From positions 2,039,001 to 2,103,000 of the forward strand of contig NZ_CP071249.1 in assembly GCF_024499055.1 (NCBI RefSeq): DNA of 64,000 nucleotides, written 5' to 3'. A program made the translations under genes and the position numbers. The notes under the pieces are model-generated. The model did no database searches. It worked only from the letters and a program-made list of their open reading frames with translations, and was not told where the DNA came from. Position 1 is the stretch's first letter. The number at the start of each line of letters is the position of its first letter. The stretch comes from Turicibacter bilis. GTDB taxonomy: Bacteria; Bacillota_I; Bacilli_A; MOL361; Turicibacteraceae. Below are positions 3,619 through 64,000 of the stretch, in pieces.

Positions 3619-3668
3619 ATTATTTGATTATTTAGGAAAAATATGTTAAATTTATTATGAAATAGATT

Positions 3669-3750
3669 ACTAGGGGTGCCTTACGGCTGAGAGTGCAAAT
3701 TGCATAACCCTTTGAACCTGAACTAGTTAGGACTAGCGGAGGGAAGTAGA
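3669..3750 (+). promoter_or_regulatory. TPP (THI-box) riboswitch
   Basis: The segment has the hallmark TPP aptamer pieces in order: GGGGTGCC, CTGAGAG, ACCCTTTGAACCTGA, then CTAGTTAGGACTAGCG and GGAGGGAAG. It lies directly upstream of thiT. Binding of thiamine pyrophosphate would favour the hairpin at 3804-3830 and shut off thiT. Confidence 0.97.
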
Positions 3751-3803
3751 CGAGCCTTTTGATGATAAAAGGATATTCTTATACTTTAAATTATGCCGTA
3801 AAG

Positions 3804-19176: not shown

Positions 19177-19244
19177 GAAAGTAAAAATCTATATATAAAC
19201 AGAAATGTTTTCTACATTTAATACAGCAACCGAAATATGGAATG

Positions 19245-19315
19245 GCTATGCCGTGCAAGGCAGACTATAGTCCAGCTAAAAGTTTTTACGATGTAAAAAA
19301 CTTATCTAGACTGAT
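19245..19315 (-). repeat. Dispersed repeat element, copy with no central unit
   Basis: Read on the minus strand this copy begins AAGTTTTTTACATCGTAAAA, passes directly to CTGGACTATAGTCTG and ends at ACGGCATA. The same flanks surround the three-unit copy at 62334-62536, so this copy looks like the element with its central hairpin units missing. It lies between convergent genes. Confidence 0.65.
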
Positions 19316-19328
19316 ATAATTTATTATC

Positions 19329-48398: not shown

Positions 48399-48452
48399 AA
48401 AAAAGACTCCTACTCTTTAATCCACAATAAAAAGAATTAAAGAGTAGGAGTC
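48399..48452 (-). terminator. Terminator of the fluoride riboswitch
   Basis: On the minus strand GACTCCTACTCTTTAAT pairs with ATTAAAGAGTAGGAGTC and is followed by T6. Its 5' arm uses the GACTCCTAC end of the aptamer, so fluoride binding and termination exclude one another. Confidence 0.92.
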
Positions 48453-48495
48453 ATTAGCTTTCGCGGTTAATGGCGAACTCCATCGCCTATTCAAT
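48443..48495 (-). promoter_or_regulatory. Fluoride (crcB-motif) riboswitch
   Basis: Read on the minus strand: GGCGATGGAGTTCGCC, then ATTAACCGC, a short GCGAAAGC hairpin, then TAATGACTCCTAC. These are the conserved elements of the fluoride aptamer. It precedes the antiporter gene and is of the 'on' type by its terminator arrangement. Confidence 0.95.
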
Positions 48496-48579
48496 ACTCT
48501 TATTATATGATGTGACTATTAAAATGTAAATAAAAAATAAAAAGAGGATAGAATTAAAATTAATCAATTATTAGTCTGA

Positions 48580-49627: not shown

Positions 49628-49639
49628 CTATATAACTCC

Positions 49640-49785
49640 AGATAAGTTTTTAATATAGCGAAAGCTTTAAAGCCCTAGTAATTGAGGATACATTTTTTTC
49701 GAAAATGGTAGGTGACCCATTCCCTATCAGCGGAAGAAAGCTATGAGTTTGTAAACCCACTACATAGCATAGGTGACCATGCTCA
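49640..49785 (+). repeat. Dispersed repeat element, diverged copy with one clear unit
   Basis: Starts AAGTTTTTAATATAGCGAAA and CTTTAAAGCCCTAG, then has one unit 49671-49719 (AGCCCTAGTAATTGAGGATA ... GGTAGGTGACCCA) and a second degenerate unit beginning TTCCCTATCAG and ending CATAGGTGACCA. It corresponds to the element at 62334-62536. Confidence 0.7.
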
Positions 49786-56212: not shown

Positions 56213-56234
56213 AATCACAACAAGAAATCAAATT

Positions 56235-56512
56235 CGTTGAAGAGAAAGAGTAAGTTAGTTTAATACCCCACAGAGAGTCGACATTTGCTGAGAGTCGATG
56301 GTCACGGATTAACTGAAAATCATCTCTGAGAAGTAAGGCTGAATCAAGAGTAAGTCTTTCCGGGCGTCTTTTCCCGTTATCAAAAAAAGCCGTTAAAACC
56401 TTTAAATAGGTGAGACGTGTAGAGTGCTATAGGCTTTTTTAGCTTATAGAATTTGGGTGGTACCACGGAGAACTTTCGTCCCATGAATGTTATATTCATG
56501 GGATTTTTTTAT
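56235..56512 (+). promoter_or_regulatory. T-box riboswitch, probable isoleucine specifier
   Basis: Contains the T-box core GGGTGGTACCACGG (56455-56468) that pairs with uncharged tRNA, and a terminator CCCATGAAT/ATTCATGGG with T7 (56479-56509). In stem I, the TCTCT at the base pairs with AGAGA near 56240. The specifier loop reads CTGAAAATCATC; ATC (56319-56321), followed by a purine, would be an Ile codon. Control of a branched-chain amino acid transporter fits. Confidence 0.9.
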
Positions 56513-61180: not shown

Positions 61181-62317
61181 ATGAAAGCAATTATTAATGG
61201 GAAATTAGTAACACTAAATGGGGTTATTGAAAATAAAGTTTTAGTTTTTAATGAAATAATTCAGCATATTCAAACAGAAGTGCCAATCGATTGTGATGTG
61301 ATTGATGCTAAGGGTATGTATATTGCTCCAGGATTAATCGATGTTCATGTCCATGGAAGCTGCGGAGCAGATACGATGGATCAAACAACGGAAGCGATTA
61401 AATTAATGAGTGCAGGTATTGCTAAGAATGGGGTAACATCATTTTTACCAACAACGATGACGATGAGTCCTAAAGATATTTATGGTGCTTTAGATGTGGT
61501 TCGTGAATGTATGGGACAATTATTAAACGGGGCGAAAGTATTAGGTGCTCACATGGAAGGCCCCTTTATCAATAGGATTTATAAAGGGGCTCAACCGGAA
61601 CAATATGTTATTAAACCGAGTTATGAATTTATCAAAGACTATACAGATGTGATTAGATTAGTTTCATATGCACCTGAAATGGATGAAGATTATTCATTCA
61701 CAAAAGATGTGAAAGAAAAAACAGATATTACGTTGTCGATTGGACATACAAATGCAACATATGACCAAGCCAAAGAAGCCTTTTCTTTAGGATGTTCGCA
61801 TGTGACACATTTATTTAATGCAATGACACCATTAAATCATCGTGAGCCAGGTGTAGTCGGAGCCTCTTTAACTAGTGATGTTTTTACTGAGTTAATCGCT
61901 GACACGATTCATGTGAATAAACAATTGTTTCAATTCGTATTAGACAATAAAGGAAAAGAAAAGATTGTTTTAATTACAGATAGTATGCGCGCAGGATGCA
62001 TGAAGGATGGGCAATATGATCTTGGTGGACAGCCGGTAGTTGTTAAAGATGGAGCTGCCCGATTAGAAAGTGGAAACTTAGCGGGAAGTGTCTTAACATT
62101 AAACAAAGCCATCTATAACTTCTTGCAAAATACAAATGCTACTGTTGCCGAAGTTATTCACATGGCTTCATTAAATCCAGCGACATCCATTGGAGTTTCC
62201 AATCGTAAAGGAAGTTTAGAAATCGGAAAAGATGCAGATATTGCAATCTTTGACGAGGAAATGAATTGTTATTTATCCATCGTTGAAGGTCGCGAGGTTT
62301 ATAACCAACTTGATTAA
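61181..62317 (+). CDS. nagA: N-acetylglucosamine-6-phosphate deacetylase
   Basis: A 378-residue amidohydrolase that converts GlcNAc-6-P to glucosamine-6-P. Motifs: metal-binding DVHVHGSCG (about residue 58), HMEGPFIN, SIGHTNATYDQA, HLFNAMTPLNHREPG and the catalytic Asp in LITDSMRAG. ATG 61181 follows GAGGTGG; the ATG at 61169 lies in that site. No nagB is next to it. It is followed by the dispersed repeat whose first hairpin may serve as terminator. Confidence 0.95.
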   Translation: MKAIINGKLVTLNGVIENKVLVFNEIIQHIQTEVPIDCDVIDAKGMYIAPGLIDVHVHGSCGADTMDQTTEAIKLMSAGIAKNGVTSFLPTTMTMSPKDIYGALDVVRECMGQLLNGAKVLGAHMEGPFINRIYKGAQPEQYVIKPSYEFIKDYTDVIRLVSYAPEMDEDYSFTKDVKEKTDITLSIGHTNATYDQAKEAFSLGCSHVTHLFNAMTPLNHREPGVVGASLTSDVFTELIADTIHVNKQLFQFVLDNKGKEKIVLITDSMRAGCMKDGQYDLGGQPVVVKDGAARLESGNLAGSVLTLNKAIYNFLQNTNATVAEVIHMASLNPATSIGVSNRKGSLEIGKDADIAIFDEEMNCYLSIVEGREVYNQLD

Positions 62318-62333
62318 GATATAAGCTCCCATA

Positions 62334-62536
62334 AGTTTTTTACATCGTAAAAACTTTTAAAGCCCTAGCAATTGAGGAATAGATTTCTTTCAGAAATTGC
62401 TAGGTGACCCAAGCCCTGCCAGTGGAGGATACATTTCCGTTGGAAATGGCAGGTGACCCAAGCCCTAGCAGCTGAGGATACATTTTCTTCGAAGATGTCA
62501 GGCTGGCTCCAGACTATAGTCTGTCCTGGACGGCAT
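62334..62536 (+). repeat. Dispersed repeat element with three tandem hairpin units
   Basis: Order: hairpin AAGTTTTTTAC-ATC-GTAAAAACTT (62334-62357), then units at 62361-62411, 62412-62460 and 62461-62510, then CAGACTATAGTCTG and ACGGCATA. Each unit begins AGCCCT, has an outer stem (CCTAGCA/TGCTAGG; CCTGCCA/TGGCAGG), a conserved GAGGATAC-like bulge, an inner stem (ATTTC/GAAAT; ATTTCC/GGAAAT) and the tail GGTGACCCA. Stems covary between units. Confidence 0.75.
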
Positions 62537-62796
62537 AAATATTAAACATTTAGATTGCTATACAAAATATTTCTGTATGTATATAGTAAATGAAAATATG
62601 TCAGCTGATATCAATTCATAGTACAATTATTCAAGAATATAACAGCTTTGTTAGACAGATGGATTTAAAATTTATTGAATACTCGAAAAGTATTAACATT
62701 TAAATGAGTGGTAAAATAAATATAAAAAAGTTATAATTATCCATTGGATTAGTTTTTAATCTAATAAGAGTATCATTATAGTTTAGGTGTGATAAA

Positions 62797-64000
62797 ATGT
62801 TTTTAACAATAGGAGAAAAGATTCGTCAGGCAAGAGATAAGTACGGGTTGAAGCAAATTGCATTTGAATCTTATGGATTCTCACGTAATTATATTAGTAT
62901 GATTGAGACAGAGAAGCGCTCCTTAAATGAAAATATGCTAAGAAATGTTTATGATGCAATTTGTGAATTAAGTAATTGTCACTATCAGCAAGACTATTCC
63001 TATACTGAGTTTATAAAATCACCTGTTGAACAAGCAAGAGAATGGCTAGAGCAGCATTGTAATCTTCAAGATGCCTTAAATCAATATGAAACTTTTAATA
63101 AGATTGCATCAGATTTTGAGTTAATTGAATATAAAATTAAAATAGAAACATTACTTGGATTACACTATGTTAAAAATGATGAGTTATTAGTAGCCAATGC
63201 TCATTTATTAAAGGCAATTGGATACTGTATCCAGGTTGCTAAAAATCCTGCTTCTTTATATGAGGTAGTAGGAACTAATTATATTACATTAGGGCAATAT
63301 CAAGAAGCTATTTCTATCTTACAACTGTCTATTAATTGTCAGGAGGGGGATAGGGGGCAAAATATTAATCGCATTCGATATTATATTTCTCTTTGTTATT
63401 TAAATGAAGGCAAGTATGAAAAAAGTTTAGAGTGGATTACTCCGGTATTAGAACAAAGTGAATATCTACAGCCTAAAGCGGCAGCTTATTTAATTAAATC
63501 GACTATTTTAAAAAGACAAGGTCGAGATGAGTTAGGAAGAGAGTTATTACTCGAATTGATTAATAATCCTTTTTATGAAGATTATTTGGGTTATGCTTAT
63601 CATAATTTAGGCTGTAGCTTTAAAGACTCAGGACTATATCAACAAGCACTTGATTGTTTGAAGATAGCACTCCCTCTCCGTGAAACAGTTAAGCAACGCT
63701 CGATTACCAAATGTTTGATGGGCGAAGTTTATTTTAGAATAGGCAATTATGAAAAAGCTCATAGTTTATTAGTCGAGGTTAAAGATATTATTTTTCATAA
63801 AGGTTCTCTTGAACAACAAGAGGCGACTTTAGAGTGGGGATTAGATTTATATTTGGAAACTCAAGACTTTGAGTCCATGTTGATTTTGTTAGAGGATATT
63901 CAAAAATTAGTTGATAAAGAGATATTAGATGAGTTTATTTATACGAAATTTCAAAATCGATTATATAAAAGGATTATGAATGATGTTCTTGGTCAACAGA
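62797..64000 (+). CDS. XRE/TPR transcriptional regulator, RRNPP-like (partial)
   Basis: The frame is open from an ATG at 62797 (site TTTAGGTG) to the right edge, 401 codons, so the C-terminus is missing. Residues 1-65 are a helix-turn-helix of XRE type (GEKIRQARDKYGLKQIAFES ... SRNYISMIETEKRSL). From about 85 on there are helical repeats of TPR type (ANAHLLKAIGYCIQVA; NYITLGQYQEAISILQ; CYLNEGKYEKSLEW; FRIGNYEKAHSLL). This is the plan of RRNPP regulators such as Rgg and PlcR that bind short peptides. A small pheromone gene could lie just beyond the edge. Confidence 0.85.
   Translation, partial: MFLTIGEKIRQARDKYGLKQIAFESYGFSRNYISMIETEKRSLNENMLRNVYDAICELSNCHYQQDYSYTEFIKSPVEQAREWLEQHCNLQDALNQYETFNKIASDFELIEYKIKIETLLGLHYVKNDELLVANAHLLKAIGYCIQVAKNPASLYEVVGTNYITLGQYQEAISILQLSINCQEGDRGQNINRIRYYISLCYLNEGKYEKSLEWITPVLEQSEYLQPKAAAYLIKSTILKRQGRDELGRELLLELINNPFYEDYLGYAYHNLGCSFKDSGLYQQALDCLKIALPLRETVKQRSITKCLMGEVYFRIGNYEKAHSLLVEVKDIIFHKGSLEQQEATLEWGLDLYLETQDFESMLILLEDIQKLVDKEILDEFIYTKFQNRLYKRIMNDVLGQQ

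Follow-up and report, generated by a model that had tools for sequence, protein, structure and literature searches.

A hairpin unit of about 49 nt in Turicibacter that appears to insert by itself and to be nested in an IS630-type MITE

The 2.79-Mb chromosome of Turicibacter (genome G000) carries a dispersed composite repeat that very probably consists of two nested mobile elements: a MITE of the IS630 type, formed by a left (A) and a right (C) module, and a separately mobile hairpin unit (B) that lies between them in varying number. Comparison of filled and empty sites shows that the B unit, usually 45–62 nt in size (typically ~49 nt), is a hairpin element in its own right and can also insert by itself. 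At the level of sequence, A and C together are a non-autonomous MITE, both ends of which match the ends of a resident insertion sequence (IS) of the IS630 family. The number of units varies at least partly through separate mobility of the unit. The stretch of DNA analysed, the window, is the 64-kb segment C1:2,039,001–2,103,000. The three copies described in an earlier note on this DNA are all present in it, with three units (the third degenerate), two units and, on the minus strand, no unit, as follows.

62,320–62,586, + strand: copy 1, A-B(3)-C, with left module, three units and right module
62320–62359, + strand: copy 1, left (A) module, with a worn TATATAAG-type terminal repeat, the GTCC closing-stem strand and the hairpin AAGTTTTT/AAAAACTT
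62360–62410, + strand: copy 1, B unit 1 (covariance model R1, 67.7 bits, E 8.4e-16)
62411–62459, + strand: copy 1, B unit 2 (R1, 71.4 bits, E 7.2e-17)
62460–62504, + strand: copy 1, B unit 3, degenerate (R1, 38.6 bits, E 2.6e-7)
62505–62586, + strand: copy 1, right (C) module, ending TTTCTGTATGTATATAG, with the right end as in other copies
49,629–49,778, + strand: copy 2, left module and two units
49629–49669, + strand: copy 2, left (A) module, from the left-end survey of the genome
49670–49718, + strand: copy 2, B unit 1 (R1, 65 bits, E 5.4e-15)
49719–49778, + strand: copy 2, B unit 2, of the long inner-hairpin type, from the structural parse
19189–19318, − strand: copy 3, intact zero-unit A+C element of 130 nt, of a young subfamily, near-identical to seven genomic copies

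The copies had been said to share flanks, and this holds for the left side; the usual right module is not recognisable 3′ of unit 2 at the 49.6-kb locus. The A module of copy 1, which is among the 66 left ends of the genome, has an exact 29-nt match to the 19.2-kb copy, and 57 nt of its C module are complementary at 75% to that copy. The near-identical partners of copy 3 lie at 62870, 505269, 779259, 789144, 856370, 1402256 and 2272971. Copy 1 begins right behind the stop codon of nagA (62,315–62,600). In genomes G001 and G004 a nagB-like gene lies immediately 3′ of nagA, where G000 has the element and unrelated sequence instead, and the 62.3-kb copy therefore occupies a rearranged spot. The nagA regions of four relatives are without the element, and the sequence 3′ of nagA in them could not be aligned with this copy. 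The window also contains a TPP riboswitch (3662–3761), a fluoride riboswitch (48438–48496) and a T-box leader (56228–56486), all at Rfam gathering scores.

A search of G000 with the covariance model, which the note had proposed for the genome and its relatives, yielded 148 matches (best E 2.5e-17, nearly all <1e-3), far more than chance would give, bearing out the view that the element is dispersed, varies in its number of covarying hairpin units and is not plain satellite DNA. A 20-mer pattern was found at 50 places in the genome and at none with the reversed control; DNA similarity, this pattern and the covariance model were concordant on a dispersed family of units. The units form ~79 clusters, 50 of them single and the largest of nine units, and adjacent units are always head to tail (67 pairs, none inverted). 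Each A-B(n)-C element contains zero to nine units, and most of the ~148 units lie inside such elements. At most 48 clusters have a MITE end, an upper bound because the end test is loose and some solo units pass it. At C1:1,095,900–1,096,850 a larger repeat holds seven units among diverged copies of a longer sequence that includes CATTATCCAGGTGG. At C1:1,115,000–1,116,000 of G003, about a dozen units of alternating types lie beside an acetyltransferase gene, and three unit types recur there in repeated order.

The other four Turicibacter genomes gave 54, 14, 44 and 30 model matches, and a genome from another genus in the family gave 21; in G002 the unit pattern also occurs near the end of contig C104. 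Units were confined to relatives of the same family: the model found none in genomes of other members of the class in a set of 60, and the five matching genomes among 392 in a survey of Bacillota all belong to Turicibacteraceae. Genomes G005 and G007 are without units. Phage and plasmid records gave no unit match, and viral contigs were rejected as carriers, since the covariance model finds no credible unit at their three pattern matches. Four unit-rich loci matched no Rfam family at the gathering score and had weak unrelated matches only (E≤5). The earlier failure to match the repeat to a known family thus stands with respect to Rfam; the element as a whole can nevertheless be placed, as a MITE of the IS630 type whose A-B(n)-C layout is BOX-like.

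Left ends of the outer element were located 66 times in G000, and a right end was recognised downstream in about two thirds of these. Zero-unit copies are 128–131 nt long and fall into at least three subfamilies, some being nearly identical and hence young; the unit-bearing copies are more diverged. Both element ends carry TATATA, and copies are nested in the TATATA end of another copy at 779,033/779,259, 1,389,850/1,389,504, 1,471,000/1,470,825 and 1,835,007/1,834,737, as would suit a TA target; an exact empty site of an A-B-C element was not found. The GTCCAG of the left module can pair with the CTGGAC that opens the right module, enclosing the left hairpin and the units. This closing stem covaries (GTCGCG/CGCGAC at 766,333, GTCCCG/CGGGAC at 1,160,825 and GTAGCG/CGCTAC at 1,922,920), and none of 1000 shuffles reached its covariation. 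The arrangement of fixed A and C modules around zero to n B modules is that of a BOX-type composite. Sixty-four of the 66 copies are clear of ORFs of at least 80 codons, and one of the remaining two is a span joining two elements. The claim that all copies are intergenic therefore applies to the A-B-C element; lone units also occur inside genes.

The A+C element has no transposase gene of its own; a PF13358 transposase is present elsewhere in G000, in two copies of a two-ORF IS of the IS630 family (DDE_3, E 4.1e-42). The left end of this IS, TATATAAACAGAAATGTATTTCAT, matches the right end of the MITE, AAACAGAAATGTATTTCAT, with 19 nt of identity, and its right end read inward, TATATAAACAGATAAGTTTTTCACAT, matches the left end of the MITE, GATAAGTTTTTCACAT, with 16 nt of identity. 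From this end identity, we infer that the IS630 transposase would move the MITE into TA-rich (TATATA) sites. The IS is found in G000 and G001 and has relatives in G006, both G001 and G006 having units, and it is absent from the unit-free G005 and G007. In G002–G004 units are present and an intact IS630 was not found, so that activity of the outer element there must be past or lost.

Several units lie inside genes with no A or C module nearby. The key comparison is among four copies of IS66 within the chromosome of G000. At a site in tnpB, one copy is empty (ATATTT|ATCG) and three carry a 49-nt unit, ATTCCCTACC...GGTGACCC, at the bar. A first site in tnpC is empty in three copies, two of which read TATAGCGTC|ATCG, and contains a 51-nt unit in the fourth. 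A second tnpC site holds a unit, antisense to the gene, in one copy; of the other three copies, two are empty and the last retains 4 nt (GGAA), a scar as expected for loss of a unit by slippage between two CTA triplets. The IS66 copy at C1:346,499–349,499 has units in tnpB and tnpC and the 4-nt scar at the third unit site. Copies of an IS3-family element in G000 provide three more sites, at each of which one copy has a unit and others have none. Of the G001 copies, one lacks a unit at IS3 site B (TTAAATTC|ATTTCCCC) and another has it, and both lack the unit that G000 copies carry at the orfA site (TTTTCC|ATTTC).

The single units at filled sites are 45–51 nt long, are cleanly inserted and lie in both orientations to the gene. 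The unit, ATTCCCTA...GGTGACCC, enters after C or T and immediately 5′ of A, a rule that rests on the sites other than two of the three IS3 sites, at which the bases adjoining the unit had also changed. There is no target duplication beyond an ambiguity of 1–3 nt, and a 1-bp duplication of the A is compatible with the sites. The right module of the MITE obeys the same rule (CCTTGC|ACGGC, 912,525). Two IS66 genes with flanks of 62% identity have an identical unit at the same position, and diverged tnpB genes have different units at one position (237,374 and 346,832); such shared positions point to preferred sites. Every Turicibacter genome examined has solo units in many genes unrelated to each other. 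ORFs that are interrupted, or that match when the flanks are joined, include IS66 Orf2, the IS66 transposase, an IS3-type orfA, an integrase core, an ISL3 transposase, a PDDEXK_2 gene and an FMN reductase; the end of radC, an ssb-like gene (a fragment without a Pfam match) and an aldo/keto reductase were identified as hosts by eye. Some insertions preserve the reading frame, namely one of 54 nt in the ssb-like gene and those of 45 nt in ISL3 transposases. The unit at C1:439,522–439,576 of G000, the 54-nt one, adds 18 residues to the ssb-like product (RSPALSSEALSHPQLVGN) and no stop.

The fold of the unit was examined in 72 distinct units, each parsed into two stems and a one-sided bulge. Stem 1 has 5 bp (CCTAN/NTAGG); next comes a bulge of 12–13 nt, confined to the 5′ side, with the consensus CAGYGGAGGATA. 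The inner stem usually has 6–7 bp, its 3′ side being stacked nearly flush, and the loop is usually TTC; the tail is TGACCCA. As had been noted from the window, bulge and tail are kept while the stems vary. The inner 5′ arms occur in thirty variants (CATTTTC, GATTTCT, CCTAACT, GCTAAG, TGCACG and GTTTCAC among them), and inner pairs are Watson-Crick in 456 cases, G.U in 18 and A.C in 9, in a parse that by design favours pairing. The mean inner stem was 6.4 bp, compared with 3.3 bp for shuffled units parsed alike and 5.1 bp for chimeras of different units. A two-stem structure named by hand was subjected to shuffles and slides on a sequence alignment of 35 units. In this structure 91.8% of cells were paired and covariation was 0.282, compared with 0.098 after shuffling, and none of 500 shuffles attained the observed score; it collapsed when the partner was slid by 1–3 columns. 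These data confirm the compensating stem changes claimed earlier. RNAalifold on a MAFFT alignment returned the outer stem only. The commonest departure is A.C at pair 4 of stem 1 (24 of the 72 units); read on the complementary strand this pair is a G.T wobble, so that the opposite strand may be the folded one.

Covariation had been taken as the mark of selection on folded RNA or single-stranded DNA. The covariation is real, but RNA function does not follow from it alone, and it is accounted for just as well by a single-stranded DNA intermediate that folds. If the units were kept for an RNA role, a chain of hairpins transcribed together with the neighbouring genes would stabilise, terminate or process transcripts, or bind a protein or ribosomes. 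Besides the strong covariation of the stems, this reading could draw on the GGAGGA that occurs in the bulge, as a possible ribosome contact, and on the placement of copies between same-direction genes, 27 of which are sense and 12 antisense; BOX and other MITEs are known to act at the RNA level (PMC3049150). The bias in orientation is weak, however, the copies without units are the youngest and resemble each other most, transposase genes contain units in either orientation, the distribution is confined to one family, and the clean solo insertions would be left unexplained. We therefore consider an RNA role unlikely.

Complementary arms could also be maintained without selection if template switching during replication copied one arm onto the other, a correction known for quasi-palindromes. 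The slippage-like 4-nt scar in one IS66 copy does suggest that units provoke replication errors. Such correction hardly accounts for the unit, however, since both helices are maintained with a conserved one-sided bulge of 12–13 nt between them, and a third of the units retain the A.C at pair 4 of stem 1 uncorrected; we regard it as quite improbable. Scarcely credible is the idea that intragenic units are harmless because they are cut out of the message or passed over by the ribosome, as mobile bypass elements or mini-introns would be. Unit-bearing IS copies did keep multiplying, one tnpB unit being found in three IS66 copies and one orfA unit in several IS3 copies, but help in trans from the existing unit-free copies explains this spread; the units lie in both orientations to the gene, and several shift the frame or add stops, and RNA bypass or splicing was rejected on these grounds of orientation and frame. 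Least probable of all is multiplication solely by tandem duplication inside the MITE, which some arrays with perfect tandem copies recall (2525733–2526039 and 2351205–2351632) and which the exact single-unit filled and empty sites outside any MITE, as well as the two IS66 genes that share an identical unit at one position and have flanks of 62% identity, contradict.

Under the preferred reading, a separately mobile unit within an IS630-type MITE, the entry points of units into the MITE would have been the A/C junction and the loop of a C-module hairpin (CCTTGC|ACGGC). The unit ends in CCC followed by A, so that its 3′ end is itself a target. Targeting of its own end would produce head-to-tail arrays of variable, mixed composition, which recombination or slippage may alter further. 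The stems would covary because the mobilising enzyme recognises a folded single strand, and the constant bulge (CAGYGGAGGATA) and tail (TAGGTGACCCA) may be its contact and cleavage sites. Our first choice for the unit, held tentatively, is a single-strand mechanism of the HUH type (IS200/IS605/RAYT-like), which is favoured by the fixed polarity, the exact insertion with little or no target duplication and a fold that is conserved while its stems are replaceable and its bulge and tail constant; transposases of the HUH type in the IS200/IS605/RAYT group handle hairpins in single-stranded form (PMC6006769). A somewhat less favoured possibility is that, in a Firmicute, the bulged hairpin of ~49 nt is the insertion unit itself, moved in single-stranded form into preferred sites by an enzyme other than a linked RAYT, and spreading by loading onto IS66, IS3, ISL3 and the IS630 MITE.

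No RAYT-like gene with flanking units was found, and no unit adjoins the Y1 genes examined. The Y1/IS200 transposase was rejected as mobiliser, being unlinked to units and absent from the unit-bearing G004. A PDDEXK_2 (Rpn-type) nuclease, suspected from unit pairs in one G002 gene, was likewise not supported because the distributions of gene and units disagree: it is present in G005 and G007, which have no units, and missing from G004, which has them. The gene concerned, on contig 104 of G002, is apparently broken by three unit pairs antisense to it.

Each half of the composite resembles known systems. BOX of Streptococcus pneumoniae, boxA-boxB(n)-boxC, also has fixed ends and a variable tandem core; its outer modules likewise pair together while the core folds alone, it exceeds 100 modules per genome, is mostly intergenic and is confined to few relatives (PMC3049150). 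ISSpn2 has been proposed for the ends of BOX (PMC3049150), whereas the Turicibacter ends match an IS630-family IS; the Turicibacter core units also occur alone in genes with empty sites, and the likeness drawn here is one of layout. RUP of S. pneumoniae, mobilised by IS630-Spn1, is similarly small (~107–130 nt) and non-autonomous, with IS630-type ends and a TA-rich target, but it is a simple repeat, the variable hairpin core being found only on the Turicibacter side (PMC2229807). REP/BIME sequences with RAYT are, like the units, short, high-copy, clustered hairpins with alternative complementary stems by subfamily, some of them in ORFs (PMC3733652, PMC6006769). In place of their GTAG/GTGG foot tag, the Turicibacter units have the ends ATTCCC.../...GGTGACCC; they also differ in having no RAYT gene flanked by units, head-to-tail arrays only and the 12–13-nt bulge, and Turicibacter lies outside the REP/RAYT host range as far as these two sources state it. 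Rickettsia palindromic elements are likewise palindromes tolerated in protein genes, sometimes in frame (PMC2229807, PMC3733652), but most are 105–146 bp or CGTC-tagged, whereas the units of 45–62 nt have no CGTC end and are also loaded into a MITE. The BrickBuilt MITE of Porphyromonas gingivalis has a leader and a tail around a variable tandem core; unlike the Turicibacter units, that core is a 23-nt minisatellite and is always intergenic (PMC4596501).

In a limited literature search we found no paper describing the Turicibacter element, and the combination of the two halves with clean single-unit insertions matches no described family. The scarcity of empty sites is largely why the origin of BOX-type composite repeats and of intragenic palindromes has stayed unsettled. 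In Turicibacter, sites with and without the unit can be compared inside a single genome, the outer ends match those of a resident transposase element and natural compensatory variants are many, and the movement of a 49-nt hairpin thereby becomes directly testable. As a whole, these features suggest that composite repeats can arise by one tiny mobile element colonising another.
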